DNA of 64,000 bases from Gemmatimonas phototrophica (GTDB lineage Bacteria; Gemmatimonadota; Gemmatimonadetes; Gemmatimonadales; Gemmatimonadaceae), in NCBI RefSeq assembly GCF_000695095.2, contig NZ_CP011454.1, positions 1,550,001 to 1,614,000 on the forward strand, written 5' to 3'. Below are positions 12,949-64,000 of the stretch, piece by piece. Each line of letters starts with the position of its first letter. Within the stretch, counting starts at the first letter, position 1. Position numbers and translations under genes: made by a program. Under the pieces are notes generated by a model, which made no database searches, was not told the origin of the DNA, and worked only from the letters and a program-made list of their open reading frames with translations.

Positions 12949-13048
12949 GGCCGCGAAGTCTCCTGGGCGCAATTGGCAGGTGAGATAAACCCGGGGTGCG
13001 GGCGTACCATAACGAATGAGCGCCGATAATGGTACCAGTCGGTCCAGT

Positions 13049-13066
13049 TGTCAAGAAAAGTGTACG
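13049..13066. promoter_or_regulatory. PpsR-like operator 1 in the aerR-bchF promoter region
   Basis: TGTCAAGAAAAGTGTACG matches TGT-N12-ACA except for the last base. Its first 17 bases are identical to the perfect site at 45286-45303, which makes chance unlikely. It lies in the 196-base divergent gap between aerR and bchF. Confidence 0.72.
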
Positions 13067-13082
13067 TCAAGTCTTCTTGACA
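13065..13082. promoter_or_regulatory. PpsR-like operator 2 in the aerR-bchF promoter region
   Basis: CGTCAAGTCTTCTTGACA matches TGT-N12-ACA except for its first base. It abuts operator 1, with centres 16 bases apart. The outer arms TTGTCAAGAA (13048-13057) and TTCTTGACAA (13074-13083) also form a perfect 10-bp inverted repeat spanning both, so the pair could be bound cooperatively. TTGACA here could also act as a -35 element for bchF. Confidence 0.68.
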
Positions 13083-13144
13083 ACTCCTGACCCCAATCGT
13101 ACCCTGATGTCGTCTGGGCAGCGAACCCCCGGAAGAGAAGGCTG

Positions 13145-38703: not shown

Positions 38704-38745
38704 GGAATAGCGCGAACTCCTCACAAAAGAAGTTCGCGCTATTCC
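38704..38745. terminator. Bidirectional terminator between bchO and bchZ
   Basis: GGAATAGCGCGAACT (38704-38718) and AGTTCGCGCTATTCC (38731-38745) form a perfect 15-bp inverted repeat with a 12-base loop, in the 106-base convergent gap. It should end transcription from both sides. Confidence 0.85.
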
Positions 38746-49358: not shown

Positions 49359-49396
49359 CAACGGGATGATAGAGTCGAAACTCCATCATCCCGTTG
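49359..49396. terminator. Strong hairpin between puhE and the chemotaxis gene
   Basis: CAACGGGATGAT (49359-49370) and ATCATCCCGTTG (49385-49396) pair perfectly over 12 bases. After one mismatch, GAGT and ACTC extend the stem around a CGAA tetraloop. TTGTTGTC follows on the plus strand. It ends the bchI-bchD-puhE unit and probably also the convergent chemotaxis transcript. Confidence 0.82.
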
Positions 49397-53863: not shown

Positions 53864-55120
53864 CTACTCGTAACGCAGGGCTTCGACGGGGTCGAGGTTC
53901 GACGCCTTGACGGCCGGCAGCATGCCGAACGCCACGCCCGTGACGGCACTCGCCAACAGCGCGGTCACCACAATGCTCGTGGGGAGTTCCGCCGGAATAC
54001 TGGTGTTGCTGCGAATGACCCAGGCCAGCAACGCGCCAATCGCGAGGCCAATCAGCGCGCCAATGCTGGTCAGCGTGGCGGCCTCCACCAGAAACTGCCA
54101 GCGGATGGTTCCGGCGGTGGCGCCCAAGGCCTTGCGCACGCCAATCTCCCGCGTGCGTTCCGTGACGGAGATCATCATGATGGCGACCACGCCCACACCG
54201 CCCACCAGCAGCGCGACCGCGGAGAGCGCGAGACCGACCGCGAAGATGGCGCCAAAGAGCTGGTTGAAGGTGTCCATGATGCGGTCTTGCTCGACCAAAT
54301 AGAAGTCGTTGCGATCGCCAGGCTTGAGACCACGGCGGGCCCGCATGGCGGCCAGAACTTCATCCATGACTTCCGACTGGGTGGCGGTCGCCGCCGGACG
54401 AACAAACAGCGTAAGGCTGCCACGGAACGCGTCGAGGGTTCGAATGGCGGTGGTGAGCGGGACAATGGCGCGTGGGGTCTCCGGGCCGCGTCCTTCAAGT
54501 GAACGCAGGAAGCCGGCGCGAGGCGTGTAGACACCTACAACCGTGAACTGGCGACCACTGATCGTGATTTGTTTGCCAATGGGTTCGGAGTCCCCGAACA
54601 GCTGCGCCTTGAGCGTATCGTTGACCAGCACAACAGGCTGGCCGCTGTTCTCTTCGCTGCGTGTGAAGTTGCGCCCCGGGGCGATATCCGAGGCATTCAC
54701 CGCCGGCCATTCCACGCTGTAGGCATCGTAGCCCACGTTGTCCACGCGGCTGTTGCGATACGCAAAGTTGCCCTGACCCCCCTGCGTGCCTACGACCTCC
54801 TGCACGCCGGGGAGGCGACGAATCATCTCCCATTCGCCAATGGTGATGGGCGGGTTCCGACGGTCCGGGCACTTTTCATCGGTGCCGTCGCAGGCAGAAA
54901 TTCCGCTGCCTCGGCGCTGCACGATGAACGTGGTGGCGCCGATTTCCTCCAGATCCTTCTGGAACGAGGCCTTGATCCCATTCACCACGGCGCCCATGGC
55001 CACCACCACAAACACGCCGATGGCGACACCGGCAATGGTCAGTGCGGCACGGACCTTGTTGCCACGAATGGCCTCGAGCGCCATGCCCACGCCTTCGAGC
55101 ACGAGGAGCAAACGATTCAT
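53864..55120 (-). CDS. FtsX/MacB-type ABC permease, subtype I (copy 6)
   Basis: This 418-residue subtype I permease has VGMALEAIRGNKVRAALTIA, then VAIGVFVVVAMGAVVNGIKA. Near residue 75 of the periplasmic core it has CDGTDEKCPDRRNPP, a Cys pair shared with copies 2 and 4. The C-terminus contains [20 protein letters not shown] and ends DPVEALRYE. Very similar to copy 4, so the two are probably products of duplication. Confidence 0.9.
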   Translation of the reverse strand: MNRLLLVLEGVGMALEAIRGNKVRAALTIAGVAIGVFVVVAMGAVVNGIKASFQKDLEEIGATTFIVQRRGSGISACDGTDEKCPDRRNPPITIGEWEMIRRLPGVQEVVGTQGGQGNFAYRNSRVDNVGYDAYSVEWPAVNASDIAPGRNFTRSEENSGQPVVLVNDTLKAQLFGDSEPIGKQITISGRQFTVVGVYTPRAGFLRSLEGRGPETPRAIVPLTTAIRTLDAFRGSLTLFVRPAATATQSEVMDEVLAAMRARRGLKPGDRNDFYLVEQDRIMDTFNQLFGAIFAVGLALSAVALLVGGVGVVAIMMISVTERTREIGVRKALGATAGTIRWQFLVEAATLTSIGALIGLAIGALLAWVIRSNTSIPAELPTSIVVTALLASAVTGVAFGMLPAVKASNLDPVEALRYE

Positions 55121-55123
55121 GAA

Positions 55124-56365
55124 CTACTCCGACCGCAACGCGGTAATGGGATCGAGCTTGGAGGCGCGGCTGGCCGGATACAGACCAGCGCCAATGCCCA
55201 CCCCCGCGCCCGTCACGAGCGCGGCCACAATGGACCACGGGGCGACGGCGGCCGGCAACGGGGTAAGGGCCGCCACCAACTCGGCCAACCCAATTCCCAA
55301 GCCAATGCCAATCGCGGCGCCAATGGTGCTGAGCGTGGCCGCCTCCACCAGAAACTGCGAGAGGATGTCGTTGCGCTTGGCCCCGAGGGCTTTGCGGACG
55401 CCGATTTCCCGGGTGCGTTCGGCCACGGCGACGAGCATGATGTTCATGATGACCATGGCGCCCACGACCAGACTGATGGCGGGCAGCGCGGTCCCGAACA
55501 ATACGAGGCGCCCTTTGAGCTGCTTGATGAAGCCGAAGGCTGCGTCCTGGGTCACGAGACCAAAATTGTCTGGCTCTCCGGCGCGAAGCCCGCGGAAGGC
55601 CCGCAACGCGCTGCGGGCCGTTTCGATCCCTTCGGCGAGGTCGGCTTGCGTCGGCGCTTGCACAATGAGTGAACCGACATCGCGAGCCGGTCGGATGATG
55701 CGCTGCATGGGCGACGTGTTGGGCGCAATCGCCAGTCTATCGAGCGAGAAGCCAAAAACCGACCCCTGCTTCTCAATGACGCCGATCACCGTGAACGGCA
55801 CCCCTGACACGCGCAGCGTGCGGTTGAGCGGACTCAGCCCCGGGAAGAAGTGCTCCGCGACCTCCACGCCAATCACAAGGACGGGCGATCCTGCTCGCAC
55901 TTCCTGTTCGGTAAACGCGCGCCCCGCGGTCACCGCAAATTTCTTGATGGCGAAATAGTTGGCATCGGCCGCTACAGACTGCACCTGTCGTGGCCGTGCT
56001 CCCGGAGCCGAGGCGTACTTGAACGTCTCACTGGCCACCGTCGCGTTCATCGTGGCCGGCAGCGATGCGCGTACCGCGTCAATGTCGGTCATGCGCAAGA
56101 GCGGGCGCCGCTGCGCAGCCCGCGCGTCAAAGCCGCGATTGCCACCCGGTCCCACGTTGTCGAATCGTCGCAACGTGAAGGTGTTGGTGCCAATGAGGCG
56201 TGCCGCAAAATCTTCTTCAACGTACTTCCCCATACCCTCCACGATGGACACCACGGCGATGAGGAACATCACACCGATGGTGACCCCGAGCAGGGTAAAG
56301 GCGCTCTTCAGCTTCTGAACACGAAGCTGGGCAAGGGCAAGGAGGACCGCGTCGCGAGTTTTCAC
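55124..56365 (-). CDS. FtsX/MacB-type ABC permease, subtype II (copy 5)
   Basis: This 413-residue subtype II permease starts at a GTG (KTRDAVLLALAQLRVQKLKS). It has TLLGVTIGVMFLIAVVSIVE, the periplasmic sequence VNTFTLRR-like NTFTLRRFDNVGPG, and [20 protein letters not shown]. It ends DPITALRSE. It lies 3 bases before copy 6 and 57 bases after copy 4. Close to copies 1 and 3. Confidence 0.9.
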   Translation of the reverse strand: MKTRDAVLLALAQLRVQKLKSAFTLLGVTIGVMFLIAVVSIVEGMGKYVEEDFAARLIGTNTFTLRRFDNVGPGGNRGFDARAAQRRPLLRMTDIDAVRASLPATMNATVASETFKYASAPGARPRQVQSVAADANYFAIKKFAVTAGRAFTEQEVRAGSPVLVIGVEVAEHFFPGLSPLNRTLRVSGVPFTVIGVIEKQGSVFGFSLDRLAIAPNTSPMQRIIRPARDVGSLIVQAPTQADLAEGIETARSALRAFRGLRAGEPDNFGLVTQDAAFGFIKQLKGRLVLFGTALPAISLVVGAMVIMNIMLVAVAERTREIGVRKALGAKRNDILSQFLVEAATLSTIGAAIGIGLGIGLAELVAALTPLPAAVAPWSIVAALVTGAGVGIGAGLYPASRASKLDPITALRSE

Positions 56366-56422
56366 ACTGAGAAGAATAACGCGGCCCGGGATGAACCGGT
56401 GCCCTCTCCAGCCCTCAAATTC

Positions 56423-57688
56423 CTACTCGTAGCGCAGCGCCTCCACCGGATCGAGTCGGGACGCCCGGAGAGCCGGAAGCATGCCGAAGACCACACCAGT
56501 GGCAATGCTGGCAGCGATGGCGGTGATGATGGCGGACGGTGGAACGGCCGTGGGCACGGGCGTATAGGTGCGGACCAGCCAGGCCAGCCCGGTCCCGATG
56601 AGCAGCCCCAGGATGGCACCGATTGAGGTGAGCGTGGCCGCCTCCACCAGGAATTGCCACAGAATGGTGCCGCGCGTGGCTCCGAGCGCCTTGCGCACCC
56701 CAATCTCGCGTGTCCGCTCCGTCACCGAGATCATCATGATGGCCACGACGCCCACCCCACCCACCAGCAGGCCCACAGCCGAGAGCGCCAGCCCCACCAT
56801 GAAAATGGCCCCGAACAGCTGGTCGAATGTCTCCAGCATGCGGTCCTGCGCCACCAACGCGAAGTTGTTGGGCTGGCCCGGTTTGAGCCCTCGCCGGGCC
56901 CTCAGAAGCTCTGTGACGGCATCCTGCACGGCCAACGGGTCATTCCCGGCTTTCGGCTTGACCATCATGAGCAGGCCGCGGCGCCACACGTCCAGGTGCC
57001 GGTAGGCGGTCATCATGGGCAAAATCGCCCGCGGTTTGTCGGGGCCACGGCCGTCGAGCGATTTCAGGAAGCCCGCCTTGGTGTGAAACACCCCAATGAC
57101 GGTGAACTGCTTGCCCTCCACGGCAATCTGCTTGCCAATGGGATCGGAGTCGCCGAACAGACGGTTTTTAAGGGTGTCATTGATGATCACCACCGCCGCC
57201 GCCGCATCATGTTCGGCGCGCGAAAAGCTCCGTCCAGGTGAGACATCCGCGACGTCGGTCTTGATCCAGTCTGTGCTCTGCGCGTCGTAGCCCACGTTGG
57301 TCACGTGGCGATCGCGGTAGTCGAAGTTGGTTTGCCCGAAGAGCCACGCGGTAGCCGTTTCCACCTCGGGCATATCGCGAATGGCCTGCCATTCGGCGAG
57401 CGAAATGGCGGGGTTGCGGCGATCGGGGCAGGTATCGTCGGTGCCATCGCAGTTGTTGATCCCCACCCCCCGTCGGCGCACCTGGAATGATGTGGCGCCG
57501 AACTCGTCGAGATCGGCCTGAAAGCTGCGCTGGATGCCATTGACGGTGGCGCCCATGGCCACCACCACGAACACGCCAATCGCCACGCCGGCAATCGTGA
57601 GCCCCGCCCGTACCTTGTTGGTGCGGATGGCATCCAAGGCCATCCCGATGCCCTCAAGCGCCATCAGCACGCCGTCTACGATGCGCAT
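56423..57688 (-). CDS. FtsX/MacB-type ABC permease, subtype I (copy 4)
   Basis: This 421-residue subtype I permease has IGMALDAIRTNKVRAGLTIA, VAIGVFVVVAMGATVNGIQR, the Cys pair CDGTDDTCPDRRNPA in the periplasmic core, [20 protein letters not shown] and the end DPVEALRYE. It follows copy 3 by 3 bases. The strong match to copy 6 along the whole length supports recent paralogy. Confidence 0.9.
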   Translation of the reverse strand: MRIVDGVLMALEGIGMALDAIRTNKVRAGLTIAGVAIGVFVVVAMGATVNGIQRSFQADLDEFGATSFQVRRRGVGINNCDGTDDTCPDRRNPAISLAEWQAIRDMPEVETATAWLFGQTNFDYRDRHVTNVGYDAQSTDWIKTDVADVSPGRSFSRAEHDAAAAVVIINDTLKNRLFGDSDPIGKQIAVEGKQFTVIGVFHTKAGFLKSLDGRGPDKPRAILPMMTAYRHLDVWRRGLLMMVKPKAGNDPLAVQDAVTELLRARRGLKPGQPNNFALVAQDRMLETFDQLFGAIFMVGLALSAVGLLVGGVGVVAIMMISVTERTREIGVRKALGATRGTILWQFLVEAATLTSIGAILGLLIGTGLAWLVRTYTPVPTAVPPSAIITAIAASIATGVVFGMLPALRASRLDPVEALRYE

Positions 57689-57691
57689 AGT

Positions 57692-58927
57692 CTACTCCGT
57701 CCGCAGGGCGACAATGGGATCCAGCCGCGCCGCGCGGCTGGCGGGATAAATCCCGGCGGCGATTCCCACGCCCGCGCCGACCACCAGCGCGAGGACAACC
57801 GACCATGGCGCCACCGCCGCCGGCAACGGGGTGAATGCCTCGATGACCGCGGCCAGTCCAATGCCCAGCCCAATGCCAATGGCCGCGCCGACAACACTCA
57901 GCGTGGCCGATTCCACCAGAAACTGCGACATGATATCGCGCTTCCGCGCTCCGAGCGCTTTGCGAACGCCGATCTCGCGCGTGCGCTCCGCGACGGCGAC
58001 CAGCATGATGTTCATGATGACCATGGCACCGACCACCAGCCCGATGGCGGGAAGCGCCGTTCCGAAAATCACCATTTTGGATTTAATGCCGTCAAAGAAC
58101 GCCATCGCCTCATCCTGCGTCTCAAGGGCAAAGTTGTCCTTCTTGCCCGGTGGTAACCGACGCGCCGAACGCAGCACTTCGCGGGTGGCATCCATGCCGT
58201 CGGTGACCAAGGGCGCCGAGGGCGCCTGCACCACCAGCGATTCAATGTCCCCTCGAGGGCGGATGGTACGCAGCAGGGGACTGGTATAGGGCGCGATGGC
58301 CAGACGATCGAGCGAGAAGCCGAAGACCGTGCCCTGTTTCTCGATCACGCCGATGACTTCGTACGGCACACCGGCAATGCGCAATTCCCGCCCCACCGGA
58401 TCGAGCCCGCTGAAAAAGTGCTCGGCGACATCCACGCCGATGACCAGCACCCGGGCGCCGACATTCACTTCCTGCATCCCGAAGGCGCGCCCACGCTCCA
58501 CGTTGAATTTCTTGATCGTGAAATAGGACGCTTCCGTGGCAACGGCCTGCACCTGACGGGGCCGCGCAAACGGACTGTTGGCATTGAGGAACGTTTCACT
58601 GGCCACGGCGGAGATGCTGCCGGGCGGCAAGACTTCGCGTACAATCTGCGCCTCGTACGGGAAGATCCGCGGACGTCGCTGGATCTCACGCCAGTCGAGA
58701 TTGTCGTCGGTGTTGAAGTCATTCCACCGCCGCAGCGTGAAGGTGTTCACGCCGAACAGTTTGCCGGCGAAGTCGTTCTCGACGTATTTGCTCATCCCCT
58801 CCACAATGGAGACAACGGCAATCAGAAACATGACGCCGATGGTGACACCAATGAGGGTGAAGAAGCTCTTGAGCTTCTGCACCCGAATGGTGCCAAGGGC
58901 GAGGCGAACGGCTTCGAAGAAATTCAT
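57692..58927 (-). CDS. FtsX/MacB-type ABC permease, subtype II (copy 3)
   Basis: This 411-residue subtype II permease has MNFFEAVRLALGTIRVQKLKS, LIGVTIGVMFLIAVVSIVEG, VNTFTLRRWNDFNT at the start of the core, [20 protein letters not shown], and the end DPIVALRTE. The N-terminus is nearly the same as in copy 1. It lies 20 bases after copy 2. Confidence 0.9.
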   Translation of the reverse strand: MNFFEAVRLALGTIRVQKLKSFFTLIGVTIGVMFLIAVVSIVEGMSKYVENDFAGKLFGVNTFTLRRWNDFNTDDNLDWREIQRRPRIFPYEAQIVREVLPPGSISAVASETFLNANSPFARPRQVQAVATEASYFTIKKFNVERGRAFGMQEVNVGARVLVIGVDVAEHFFSGLDPVGRELRIAGVPYEVIGVIEKQGTVFGFSLDRLAIAPYTSPLLRTIRPRGDIESLVVQAPSAPLVTDGMDATREVLRSARRLPPGKKDNFALETQDEAMAFFDGIKSKMVIFGTALPAIGLVVGAMVIMNIMLVAVAERTREIGVRKALGARKRDIMSQFLVESATLSVVGAAIGIGLGIGLAAVIEAFTPLPAAVAPWSVVLALVVGAGVGIAAGIYPASRAARLDPIVALRTE

Positions 58928-58947
58928 GGACAGCTCGCGGTGAAAGA

Positions 58948-60213
58948 CTATTCGTAACGCAGTGCTTCAACGGGATCGAGTCGGGCCGCCCGGCTGGCCG
59001 GGAGCATGCCGAACAGGATGCCCGTGACGGCGCTGGCCCCGAGGGCGACCACGACCGCGAGCGGTGGGATGCTGGCGTTGATGGGCGTGAAGTTGCGAAT
59101 GAGGAGAGAGCCAATCCATCCCACAAAGAGACCAATCGCCCCACCGATTCCCGTGAGCGTGGCCGCCTCCACCAGAAACTGCCAGAGAATGGTGGCGCGC
59201 GTGGCGCCCAGCGCCTTGCGTACGCCAATCTCCCGCGTGCGTTCGGTAACCGAGATCATCATGATGGCCACTACGCCGACACCACCCACGATGAGCCCGA
59301 CCCCGGACAGCGCAATCATCACGAGAAAGAAGAGCCCGAAGATCTGGTTGTAGGTCTCGAACAACTTGTCCTGCGTGATGATGGCAAAGCTCGATTCCTG
59401 AGACGGCCTCGCTCCTCGCAGCCCCCGCAGGGTGGCGGTGACATCATCGATCGCGAGATCGCGCTGCAGGGCAGGGGTGACGCTCTCTCGCGGCTTCACG
59501 GCCAGGCCAATGTTGCTCTCCCGGGCGCCGATGTACCGCACGAGCGCCGTCACCGGCACGACGGCCTTGGGTCGCTCACCGCCCGAGAGGAAACTGCTAT
59601 TGTCCTTGAAAACGCCAATGACTTCGAACGGCACGTCATTCATGGCAATCGTCCGCCCAATCGGGTCTACTTCCCCAAACAGGCGTTCGGCCATGAGCGT
59701 TGAGATCACCGCCACCCGCGCGCCGGTCCGTGCCTCTGCCTGTGTGAAGGCTCGACCAGGATACACTTCGGGGGCGCTGATCGTGGTCCATTCCGCGGAG
59801 TACCCTTCCACTCCGGCCGATGGCAGTTCCTGGCTGCGGAAACGCACCTTGGCACTCCAGTCAAGCCGTTCCCCCACGGCTTCCACCGTGGACAAACGGC
59901 GCAATGCTGCGATCTCCCCAGACCGCAATGGTGGGTTTCGCAGCCACTTGCAGCTGTTTTCGCTGCCGTCGCAGTTCTCGAAACTGATGGGATAGCGCGA
60001 CACGAAAAACGTGGTGGGGCCGGTGCTGGCAAAATCCTTGGCCACCGATTCGTTGATGCCATGGACGGCCGCGGACATCGAGACCACCACAAACACCCCG
60101 ACGGCGATGCCCAGAATGGTCAGCCCCGCGCGCACTTTGTTCGAACGCACGGCGTCGAGGGCAATACGTACGCCTTCGGTTACGGCAGACAGGCGCGTGG
60201 TCAGAAACGACAT
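58948..60213 (-). CDS. FtsX/MacB-type ABC permease, subtype I (copy 2)
   Basis: This subtype I permease is 421 residues from the ATG at 60213 (MSFLTTRLSAVTEG), with AGGAG upstream; a GTG three codons earlier overlaps copy 1. It has VRIALDAVRSNKVRAGLTIL, VGVFVVVSMSAAVHGINESV and the Cys pair [36 protein letters not shown] precedes the final helices and the end is DPVEALRYE. Confidence 0.9.
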   Translation of the reverse strand: MSFLTTRLSAVTEGVRIALDAVRSNKVRAGLTILGIAVGVFVVVSMSAAVHGINESVAKDFASTGPTTFFVSRYPISFENCDGSENSCKWLRNPPLRSGEIAALRRLSTVEAVGERLDWSAKVRFRSQELPSAGVEGYSAEWTTISAPEVYPGRAFTQAEARTGARVAVISTLMAERLFGEVDPIGRTIAMNDVPFEVIGVFKDNSSFLSGGERPKAVVPVTALVRYIGARESNIGLAVKPRESVTPALQRDLAIDDVTATLRGLRGARPSQESSFAIITQDKLFETYNQIFGLFFLVMIALSGVGLIVGGVGVVAIMMISVTERTREIGVRKALGATRATILWQFLVEAATLTGIGGAIGLFVGWIGSLLIRNFTPINASIPPLAVVVALGASAVTGILFGMLPASRAARLDPVEALRYE

Positions 60214-60218
60214 ATGCC

Positions 60219-61466
60219 TCACTCCTGGCGCAACGCCATGATGGGGTCGAGGCGCGAGGCCCGGCTGGCCGGATACACGCCCGAGATGATCCCCACGCCG
60301 GCGCCAAGTGCCACACCCACCGCAATGGACCAGGGGGCCACACTGGCCGGCAACGGCGAGAGCGCCGCAATGAGTTGGGCCAGGGCAATGCCTAGTGCCA
60401 CGCCAATGGCCGAACCTACCGTACCCAGCGTTGAGGCCTCAATCAGGAACTGCAGCAGAATGTCACGCCGCTTGGCTCCCAGCGCTTTGCGGATCCCGAT
60501 CTCGCGCGTCCGCTCGGCCACGGCCACCAGCATGATGTTCATGATCACAATGGCCCCCACGACCAGACCGATGGCCGGAAGCGCGACACCAGCCAGCACC
60601 AGGTATCCCTTGATCTTGTTCCAGAATTCCAGCGCGGAGTCGGCGGTCTGCAATGAGAAATTGTCCTTCTGCGCGGGGCGCAGCTGGCGCTGCCCACGCA
60701 TGGCCGCGCGCACCAGTTCCATGTTCTCGGTCATCGCCAAGACATTGGGGCTCTGAATCACCACGGCATCCACGATGTTGGGGCGCGAGTTGAGCAAGCG
60801 TCGGGCGGGAGAACGGAAGGAGGCGACCACGAAGTTGTCGAACGACATGCCGAAGACTTTGCCTTGTGATTCCGCAATGCCGACCACGCGATAGGGCACG
60901 CCGCCCATCTTGAGCTCACGCCCCAGCGGGTCAAGACCGGGGAACAGCCGTTCGGCCGCGTCGGGGCCAATGACCACCGACTTCTCGCCACGGTCGAGTT
61001 CCTGTTCGGAGAGCAGGCGGCCGCGCGTTACACCCATCTTCTTGATGTCGAAGAACGCCCCCTGAACGGCAATCCCGCGCACCTGTCGCGGTTTGCCGCT
61101 GGTGCTCGACGAGACCATGATCATGTCCTCGCTGTAGAGATACCAGCGCGTGTCGCCCGGCAGCGGCGCCGTCGCCGGTGCGACATCGGTGATGTCAAGC
61201 CGCGGGCGCTTGCGGTACTCCTCCCACGTTGCCTCATCCACATCGCCAATGTTGATGTTGGGACGGTGGCGCAACTCAAAGGTGTTCACGGCAATCAGCT
61301 TGCCTATCAGATCCTCTTCCATGTAGCGCCCCATCCCTTCCACGATGGAGACGACCGAGATGAGGAACATGACGCCGATGCAGACGCCAAGCAGCGTAAA
61401 GGCGCTCTTGAGCTTCTGTGTGCGGATGGTGCTGAGTGCCAATCGGATGGCATCAAAAAACGGCAC
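60219..61466 (-). CDS. FtsX/MacB-type ABC permease, subtype II (copy 1)
   Basis: This is the first permease after the ATPase. The start GTG at 61466 (VPFFDAIRLALSTIRTQKLK) aligns with the start of copy 3 (MNFFEAVRLALGTIR) but lies inside a terminator-like hairpin, with its TTT TTT codons forming the T-run. The 415-residue protein has LLGVCIGVMFLISVVSIVEG, VNTFELRHRPN, VAERTREIGIRKALGAKRRD and the end DPIMALRQE. Confidence 0.9.
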   Translation of the reverse strand: MPFFDAIRLALSTIRTQKLKSAFTLLGVCIGVMFLISVVSIVEGMGRYMEEDLIGKLIAVNTFELRHRPNINIGDVDEATWEEYRKRPRLDITDVAPATAPLPGDTRWYLYSEDMIMVSSSTSGKPRQVRGIAVQGAFFDIKKMGVTRGRLLSEQELDRGEKSVVIGPDAAERLFPGLDPLGRELKMGGVPYRVVGIAESQGKVFGMSFDNFVVASFRSPARRLLNSRPNIVDAVVIQSPNVLAMTENMELVRAAMRGQRQLRPAQKDNFSLQTADSALEFWNKIKGYLVLAGVALPAIGLVVGAIVIMNIMLVAVAERTREIGIRKALGAKRRDILLQFLIEASTLGTVGSAIGVALGIALAQLIAALSPLPASVAPWSIAVGVALGAGVGIISGVYPASRASRLDPIMALRQE

Positions 61467-61498
61467 GGGGCCTCGCGTTGAGCGGTGACCCCGTGCCG
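61455..61498 (-). terminator. Terminator/attenuator overlapping the start of permease copy 1
   Basis: On the minus strand CGGCACGGGG (61498-61489) and CCCCGTGCCG (61470-61461) form a perfect 10-bp stem with an 18-base loop, followed directly by TTTTTTG (61460-61454). This has all features of an intrinsic terminator, yet its 3' arm contains the GTG start of permease copy 1 and its T-run encodes Phe-Phe. It lies between the ABC ATPase and the eight permeases. Confidence 0.78.
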
Positions 61499-61535
61499 TA
61501 CGGCCTAATGCAAGGCCGGTTTCATTCGAAAGAAA

Positions 61536-62342
61536 TCAGTGTGACGCGTGTGTCAGTCCGACTCGCGCAATGAACTGTTCCCGTGATTCATCACTGGCGA
61601 GCACACCGTCACGCAGCACCACCACGCGACGCGCGTGCGCCGCAATGTCGGGCTCGTGCGTAACCATCACCACGGTTTGTCCCTGCTGTGCCAACTCCTC
61701 GAACACGCGCATGATTTCTTCGGAGGTGGTGGAGTCGAGATTTCCGGTGGGTTCGTCGGCCAGCAGAATGGACGGACGGTTCACCAGCGCCCGCGCAATG
61801 GCGACACGCTGCCGCTGACCACCTGACAGCTCATTGGGACGGTGATGAATGCGCTGCCCCAACTGCACGCGCTCGAGCGCTTCGGTGGCGCGCTTGCGGC
61901 GCTCGTCGGCCGAGACGCCGGCGTAGACAAGGGGCAACTCCACATTCTGCAGCGCCGAGGCGCGTGGCAAAAGGTTGAAGGTCTGAAAGACGAAGCCGAT
62001 TTCCTTGTTGCGCACCCGGGCCAGCTCATCGTCGCTCATGTCGCTGACGAGCATCCCGTTCAACCAATACTCGCCTTCGTTGGGCGTGTCGAGACACCCG
62101 ATGAGATTCATGAGCGTGGACTTGCCGGAGCCGGACGGACCCATGATGGCCACGTACTCGTTGCGGCGAATGGCCACGTCCACGCCACGGAGCGCGCGCA
62201 CGATTTCGCCACCCATGTCATACTCACGCTTGATCTGGCGGGTGACGATGACCCAGTCCTTGCCGGGGGCCGCGCCATGCGTGGCGGTAACCGCCAGACG
62301 CTCCCCGGTGGTGCTGAGCCCAATGTCCTCGGCGGTGCTCAC
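61536..62342 (-). CDS. ABC transporter ATPase, MacB/LolD type
   Basis: This 268-residue stand-alone ATPase has Walker [10 protein letters not shown] (residues 68-76), the signature [19 protein letters not shown], Walker [13 protein letters not shown] and the switch His in [16 protein letters not shown]. The region [20 protein letters not shown] and [20 protein letters not shown] match LolD/MacB ATPases. About 30 N-terminal residues are extra. It overlaps the membrane-fusion gene by 4 bases (ATGA). It is the only nucleotide-binding subunit in the window for eight permeases. Confidence 0.95.
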
Positions 62343-63625
62343 GACTTCTTCTCCGCTCCCGGCTTCTTCTCGTCGGGCGTATTGGGCTTCACGAGGGCGC
62401 CGTCCTTGAGTTCGCGAATGGCCTGGTAGGTGCCGGCCACGATCTTTTCGCCCACCTTGAGGCCGTCGAGCACCTCGAAGTGGCGCTCGCCGGCAATGCC
62501 CACCTTGACGGGACGGAACGTGACCATGTTGTCCGTGCCCACGATGAACACGCCTTCCACGTCGCGCTTGCCAACCTGCTTGGTGGGCTGGCGACCCACC
62601 GTGACCGCCGAGTCCCCAGCGGGAAGGTCTTCGTTCTCGCGGACGGTCAGCGCAATGATCGGGATGCTCAGCACCTTCGTCCGGGTGGCGGTGACAATCT
62701 TGGCGGTTGCCGAGAAGTCAGGGCGCGTATCCACGGGCGGATTGGTGAGTTCGACACGGACTTCGTAGTCGATGGCTTGATCGCCGCTCGCGCCAGCCGT
62801 GGTCGCTCTCGTGACCGAGCTGTTGGAGATCTCGACGACCCGACCGACGAACGCCGTGTCGGGAAAGGCGTCAATCTGGATGAGCGCGGAGTCGCCCACG
62901 CTGATGCGGGCCACATCGGTTTCGTCCACCTTCACCGTGGTTTCCAGAACGCTCATGTCGCTGATGGTGAGCAGCGTGGCGTCGGCGCGATTCAACGTAC
63001 CCATGATGGCGGTTTCGCCTTCTTCGACGTTGAGGCGCGTGATCTTGCCACTCATAGGGGCCGTGATGGTGGTGCGGCTCAGCGCCTGCCGGGCATCACG
63101 AACCGTGGCCACGGACTGCTCCACCGAGAAGCTGGCCGCTTCGGCCAACGCCTTGTTGACTTCCATCTGCGTACGCAACTGCTCCAGCTGCTCTTCACTG
63201 ACCAGGTTGGGCGACTGCTTCTGGATGGCCGCCGACCGCTCGTAGTTGCGCTGGGCCTGAATGAGGTTGGCGCGGGCCTGCGCCGACTGCGCCCGCGCCG
63301 ACGCCAGCGACGCTTCCGAGCGCTGGAGGGCGGCGGTCGCCTGTTCCGGGTCGATCTGCAGGAGCAGCTGCCCCTTTTTCACCAGATCGCCTTCCTTCAC
63401 GACGAGGCGTACGATTTTGCCGGTCACATCAGCAGAGACATCCACCTTGGTCCGCGGCTCGATCTGTCCGCTTGCGGTGACCGACGCCACCAGATCGCGC
63501 GCCTCGACCGCTTCCACCCGGACATCGACGGCCTTGGTCTTGTTCCGTTTGGCGGCCACCACGCCGAGACCGGCGATACTGGAAACGACGACGACGGCGA
63601 TGACGTATTTAGCTGTTTTGGTCAT
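62339..63625 (-). CDS. Periplasmic membrane-fusion protein, MacA/HlyD type
   Basis: This 428-residue adaptor has an N-terminal anchor helix ([18 protein letters not shown]), the biotinyl-lipoyl half-motif [20 protein letters not shown], a long coiled-coil hairpin (residues ~95-180, with [20 protein letters not shown]), the second lipoyl half ([20 protein letters not shown]) and beta-barrel domains. It would connect inner-membrane permeases to the TolC-like channel whose gene ends 12 bases upstream. Closest in type to MacA. Confidence 0.93.
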
Positions 63626-63637
63626 GACTGATCTCTG

Positions 63638-64000
63638 TTAGCGAAGCGGACGGCCGACGGCATTTTCGAGCGCCGCAAAGGCCCGTTGCACATCGTAGAT
63701 GGCGGTGATGCGGTCGGTTTCGGCACGCTCGTAATCGCCACGAGCCTGCACCAGATCGACGATACTGATGGCCCCCACACGGTAGCGCTCCTGCGCCAGC
63801 GACAGGGCGGTGCGCGCCGTGCGCACGTTCTGCTCCTGAATCTCCACGGCCTGCTGCGCCGTGTTGAGCTGCAGGTGCGCGGCGGTTACATCGGCCGTCA
63901 CTCGCAGCTCCTGGCCACGCGTGTTGTTCTCGGCGTTGCGACGCTGCACCTGCGCCTGTTCGATCTGCTGTTCGCGGCGGAAGCCGTTGAACAACGGGAG
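63638..64000 (-). CDS. TolC-family outer membrane efflux protein (5' part beyond window)
   Basis: Only the last 120 codons are in the window; the frame is open to the right edge. PLFNGFRREQQIEQAQ, the helix with RVTADVTAAHLQLNTAQQAV, and LAQERYRVGAISIVDLVQAR with the YRVG-like turn are classic for the C-terminal repeat of TolC proteins. It ends ENAVGRPLR. The gene precedes the adaptor by 12 bases, so the operon order is tolC-like, macA-like, ATPase, permeases. Confidence 0.9.
   Translation of the reverse strand, partial: LPLFNGFRREQQIEQAQVQRRNAENNTRGQELRVTADVTAAHLQLNTAQQAVEIQEQNVRTARTALSLAQERYRVGAISIVDLVQARGDYERAETDRITAIYDVQRAFAALENAVGRPLR

Follow-up and report, generated by a model that had tools for sequence, protein, structure and literature searches.

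Read-through RNA of IS10 and IS50 folds the transposase start shut, whereas the native transcript of these elements stays open. In phage T4, the ribosome-binding site of I-TevI is hidden in early read-through RNA and freed in late transcripts that are without part of the hairpin, and the same arrangement is found for e, soc and segB of T4 and for mobE of phage Aeh1 (PMC2988022).

The junction between an ABC ATPase gene and the first permease gene of a Gemmatimonas phototrophica operon resembles I-TevI in that the ribosome-binding site and start codon are predicted to be hidden in long upstream transcripts only, with RNA from a nearby promoter being without part of the 5' arm. It differs from I-TevI in lying on a bacterial chromosome, in having an ECF-type rather than a T4 late promoter, in a stem that abuts a U6 tract, in placing the start codon itself in the outer stem, where T4 hides mainly the Shine-Dalgarno sequence, and in being a prediction from sequence. 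Protection from external transcription would be shared with IS10 and IS50, although those are mobile elements and this is an operon-internal efflux junction. A search of the open-access literature returned no matching bacterial chromosomal precedent, which is weak evidence as most subscription papers lie outside its scope.

The junction hairpin and its conservation

The window, the whole 64-kb stretch of DNA that was analysed (positions 1550001-1614000 of the single-contig 4.72-Mb genome), holds a minus-strand operon that runs from a TolC-like gene through genes for an HlyD-type fusion protein and an ABC ATPase to eight MacB/FtsX-type permease genes. The genes that flank the junction or precede it are:

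63638..64000, minus strand: TolC-like outer-membrane gene, extending past the window end
62339..63625, minus strand: membrane-fusion protein, HlyD type (PF16576 and PF13437)
61536..62342, minus strand: ABC ATPase, the gene preceding the hairpin, with its stop at 61536 (PF00005)
60219..61466, minus strand: permease 1 (415 aa), the first in a tandem array of eight, MacB/FtsX type (PF12704 and PF02687)

Across 53864-61466 there is one ATPase gene for eight MacB/FtsX permeases, which are arranged as four tandem pairs, and the number of pairs retained differs among genus orthologues of this array.

A hairpin occupies the ATPase-permease junction, with the start of permease 1 in its 3' arm:

61489..61499, minus strand: hairpin 5' arm (anti-start arm), ACGGCACGGGG, invariant in seven species
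61471..61476, minus strand: Shine-Dalgarno-like GCGAGG, part of which is paired by the inner hairpin; invariant in the alignment of relatives
61460..61470, minus strand: hairpin 3' arm, CCCCGTGCCGT, containing the start codon; identical in a relative (L015) that is without the 5' arm
61464..61466, minus strand: permease 1 start codon, GTG; relatives align GTG or ATG with it
61455..61460, minus strand: T6 run, read as TTT TTT (Phe-Phe)

The two arms form a perfect 11-bp stem around an 18-nt loop, or a 10-bp stem if the first T is assigned to the T-run alone. Beyond the 5' arm pairing extends into TC at 61488-61487, adding a U-G and a C-G pair, and there is an inner 3-bp CGC/GCG helix. The preliminary description, which reported a perfect 10-bp GC stem with GTG in its 3' arm and six T encoding Phe-Phe, was accurate to within a base. 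Its choice of start codon also stands: GTG is the true start because the aligned column in relatives is likewise GTG or ATG, and the sequence upstream is unrelated, without any in-frame conservation.

The 111-nt stretch folds at -53.0 kcal/mol, compared with -31.8 kcal/mol when shuffled (z = -6.25; 0/200 shuffles as good). For the intergenic stretch by itself z is -6.0, and its 11-bp stem was reached by none of 200 shuffles. No other perfect stem of 9 bp or longer in the 64-kb window has at least five T behind it. A dispersed repeat is ruled out, as the genome contains a single copy of the hairpin pattern. Perfect inverted repeats that have no T-runs, and whose length exceeds the expectation for the window, lie elsewhere at 38704-38745 (15 bp), 13046-13085 (12 bp) and 49359-49396 (12 bp).

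Orthologues of permease 1 were taken from 20 members of the genus sample, that of L054 from the longer contig copy. The hairpin is present in seven of the 20 (L001, L010-L014 and L027), and the thirteen bases following the CGTA box described below are identical in all seven. By comparison, four-fold sites of the permease differ by 22-51% between pairs of these species and only 19/140 are identical across all of them. Ten invariant bases would arise by chance with a probability of ~2e-9, a rough figure since the sites are not independent. Chance does not account for the junction hairpin: six related species share the stem, and no base of its 5' arm varies, where only 14% of four-fold sites are invariant.

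The preliminary description had suggested comparing the junction in relatives for conserved pairing with compensatory changes. The stem is conserved in the seven species; compensatory pair changes were not found among them, the sole change being G-C to G-U (L011/L027), and 15 of 16 pairs never vary. Hence it is invariance alone that supports the pairing. The two arms have different histories outside the hairpin species. L015 has the same 3' arm through T6, without the 5' arm and without the promoter P2, and the 3' arm is nearly identical in L054, again without the 5' arm. The identical sequence in L015 indicates that the 3' arm persists in its own right, as a start region, and that the 5' arm is the complement fitted to it. 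T5-T6 runs are not confined to the seven hairpin species, all of which have one: the hairpin-less L015, L054, L019-L021 and L023 have them too. The run does not appear tied to the hairpin, since it codes for Phe-Phe.

A predicted ECF-type promoter within the hairpin

Transcription from ECF promoters usually begins some 7-10 nt downstream of the CGTA box. The consensus for sigma-W is TGAAAC-N16,17-CGTA (PMC2375139). Comparison of relatives detected an ECF motif, P2, whose -10 element and predicted start overlap the junction hairpin:

61519..61524, minus strand: predicted ECF-type -35 element of P2, TGAAAC, an exact match to the sigma-W consensus
61499..61502, minus strand: -10 element of P2, CGTA, from comparison of relatives; the hairpin 5' arm begins at its final base
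61489..61492, minus strand: where P2 transcription is predicted to start, 7-10 nt past CGTA by general ECF promoter geometry and within the hairpin 5' arm

P2 is very probably a real promoter. At 61524-61499 it reads TGAAAC-N16-CGTA, letter for letter the sigma-W consensus, which comes from another phylum. As GAAAC-N15-18-CGTA no more than 120 nt from the start, the motif is found in 14/20 genus orthologues, with 0.02 expected. In hairpin species its position relative to the start is always -58 or -57, although just two of the 16 columns of its 16-nt spacer are invariant. In L054 an unrelated 1.7 kb has replaced the upstream DNA, spacer and hairpin 5' arm included, yet TGAAAC and CGTA are still exactly at -58. 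A sigma-70 promoter scan of 54000-64000 found none. In L023 (1465-1503) an ATG lies 8 nt past the CGTA of P2, such that the permease message there would be almost leaderless.

The 5' end of the permease mRNA probably lies in the hairpin 5' arm. The earlier claim that the permeases can be expressed only by read-through is accordingly not supported: with P2 at the hairpin's first base and conserved among orthologues, read-through is probably unnecessary.

A second ECF-type motif, P1, is found at the head of the operon:

genome 1615206-1615180, minus strand: P1, ECF-type promoter motif just ahead of the tolC ATG

P1 recurs in 11 genomes, 3.7-3.8 kb upstream of the permease. The genome has 14 TGAAAC/CGTA sites compared with seven for the reversed control, and genus-wide the hits number 272 against 120 for the reversed control (hand-summed). 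At least 10 of the 14 sites lie shortly upstream of a correctly oriented ORF. Besides tolC of the same operon, envelope-stress-like genes are among those concerned; by Pfam, the set includes a pair of SPFH/Band 7 genes, one gene for a DUF456 membrane protein and an ORF after an ECF sigma gene. At this last locus (L045; G000:C1:2932239-2935265) the ECF sigma gene (Sigma70_r2, r4) is followed by TGAAAC-N17-CGTA and then by a 196-aa ORF, and the sigma factor encoded there is a candidate reader of P1/P2-type motifs. The 196-aa ORF has a Cys-containing N terminus and the look of an anti-sigma factor, with no Pfam match. The likeness to sigma-W promoters extends from the boxes and spacing of P2, which are identical, to genes bearing the motif, including SPFH/Band 7 genes and the ORF behind the ECF sigma gene. 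Unlike the sigma-W system, this one belongs to a different phylum and the sigma factor reading it is putative.

Two ECF-type sites have dyads of their own. Ahead of one SPFH/Band 7 gene (L048 1501-1560; G000:C1:4108445 onward) the perfect palindrome TATTGAAGTGATATCACTTCAATA comes immediately after the ECF-type site, where transcription would be expected to begin, and might be an operator or a 5' hairpin. Around position 1501 of L042 (G000:C1:1393336) the -35 TGAAAC lies inside the inverted repeat TTGTGAAACTTTTCACAA; TGAAACTTTTCACAAG recurs ahead of CGTA in many genus genomes, which suggests a second regulator on the L042 promoter.

Read-through RNA and the proposed P2 RNA

We propose, with a probability of about 0.6, that the hairpin is a barrier to expression from read-through RNA, bypassed by the promoter embedded in it. 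Polymerase arriving from upstream, for example from P1 before tolC, would copy the entire 5' arm, and the long message would fold a 13-bp hairpin over the GTG and part of the Shine-Dalgarno sequence of permease 1, abutting the U6 tract. The complete hairpin would form solely in this read-through RNA from the ATPase, on which it would block initiation of permease translation and perhaps end transcription too. The P2 message would begin within the 5' arm, without the outer arm bases that pair with GTG-CCG, and would escape; lacking these bases, it should be unable to fold into a terminator or to block the start codon completely. Permease output would thereby depend on P2 and vary independently of tolC, fusion-protein and ATPase expression. 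What we infer from the sequence is where exactly P2 RNA starts, that P2 is active, that the barrier represses and which sigma factor is involved.

Computed folding is consistent with such a barrier. In read-through RNA of the seven species, opening the Shine-Dalgarno sequence and start costs 22-26 kcal/mol, compared with 12-16 kcal/mol when the upstream part is shuffled, and 0-2 of 100 shuffles per species reach the observed value. The computed probability that the start codon is unpaired is 0.00, which agrees with the earlier proposal that folding hides it, and the hairpin responsible is conserved in seven species. For P2 RNA the opening energy is 7-15 kcal/mol, becoming lower as the start shifts downstream, a drop of 11-19 kcal/mol depending on start site. 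The bases CGGCAC, which pair with GUGCCG of the start region, are present only in RNA from upstream. Release may nevertheless be incomplete, as P2 RNA starting at 61492 still forms GGGGUC/GGCCCC over the Shine-Dalgarno sequence, with an opening energy of ~15 kcal/mol. The inner helix of P2 RNA ends six bases before the T-run and so could not act as a terminator. The switch that the preliminary description had raised is probably made by where transcription starts, and not by something opening the hairpin.

Counting against the proposal, in the seven genus members with P2 but without the hairpin the start is not hidden beyond what shuffled upstream sequence gives (13-76/100 shuffles as high). 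Other pairings of the same kind were apparent by eye in these relatives and were dropped after this shuffle comparison.

A fuller version of the proposal is tentative, and we think it rather less likely to be right than wrong: that one element combines a terminator and a start-codon lock in read-through RNA with the start of an ECF stress promoter, that RNA from the stress promoter alone yields permeases, and that the 5' arm was fitted to a pre-existing start region and lost upon insertion between the genes.

Evolution of the junction and other readings

The permease tree requires two changes of the hairpin. A history of one gain followed by one loss, in L054, is suggestive only, since these are few, single events. 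In L054 a 1.7-kb insertion (166-1890) with opposite-strand ORFs separates the ATPase from the permease, so read-through would matter less there; the opposite strand of the insertion encodes a 182-aa ORF that is thioredoxin-like by eye, and there is an 80-aa Cys-rich small ORF. Genus relatives with an ATPase-permease gap of 13-42 nt have neither P2 nor the hairpin. Several longer gaps hold strong hairpins unrelated to this one (13 bp in L016, 11 bp in L019/L020 and 12 bp in L028), so some form of barrier or 3'-end structure may often occupy this junction.

The foremost alternative is a plain intrinsic terminator or attenuator, in which the hairpin and U6 would end most ATPase transcripts, the permeases being expressed from residual read-through and burial of the start codon being incidental. 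In a 464-kb genome sample, stems of at least 7 bp precede T-runs seven times and A-runs, the control, once. Intrinsic terminators hence exist in this genome, though rarely, and the junction hairpin is shaped like them and among the strongest; its perfect GC stem immediately precedes T5-T6 in 7/7 hairpin species. The GC-rich stem directly abutting a U tract is as expected of a terminator, whereas the 18-nt loop is long compared with the usual 3-8 nt, and a simple terminator scan did not pick up the hairpin because its loop exceeds 8 nt. Moreover, the U tract is coding and is found without the hairpin (L015, L054 and L020), a promoter probably starts transcription within the stem, and P2 in the same place probably makes read-through needless. 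The preliminary description, which called the element an intrinsic terminator, was borne out in part, a stem with a T-run behind it being a real terminator form here. We consider termination on its own unlikely to be the whole explanation.

Two further readings are each less probable still. The dyad could be a DNA operator bound by a regulator over the P2 start, with the RNA hairpin incidental: the arms sit at -10/+1 and at about +20/+30 of P2, and seven species share an unchanged 5' arm. Yet the 3' arm, which L015 has in identical and L054 in nearly identical form where no 5' arm exists, is kept as ribosome-binding site and start codon, the single stem change preserves the RNA pair as G-U and breaks perfect DNA symmetry, and the element is found once in the genome. 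REP elements between malE and malF protect the 3' end of upstream RNA. We give equally low odds to a similar protection of processed tolC-fusion protein-ATPase RNA that would set transporter stoichiometry; the unrelated hairpins in the longer gaps of relatives fit it, but it leaves unexplained both the complementarity of the 5' arm to the start region and the coincidence of the first base of the arm with the P2 -10 element. Finally, it is highly improbable that the 5' arm, sited at +1 of a conserved promoter, has no regulatory role and is invariant merely as the initially transcribed sequence of P2, since other P2-bearing genus members have unrelated sequence there and the stem length is reached by 0/200 shuffles in each of the seven species.

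If the barrier with its embedded bypass is correct, read-through-proofing, known from phage and transposons, also serves operons of free-living bacteria, here making one gene responsive to its own stress promoter. It would then be unsafe to take expression from the operon message for granted for genes within one apparent operon. The hairpin-bearing and hairpin-less species provide a ready comparison, and the motif set suggests that Gemmatimonas has a sigma-W-like envelope-stress regulon.
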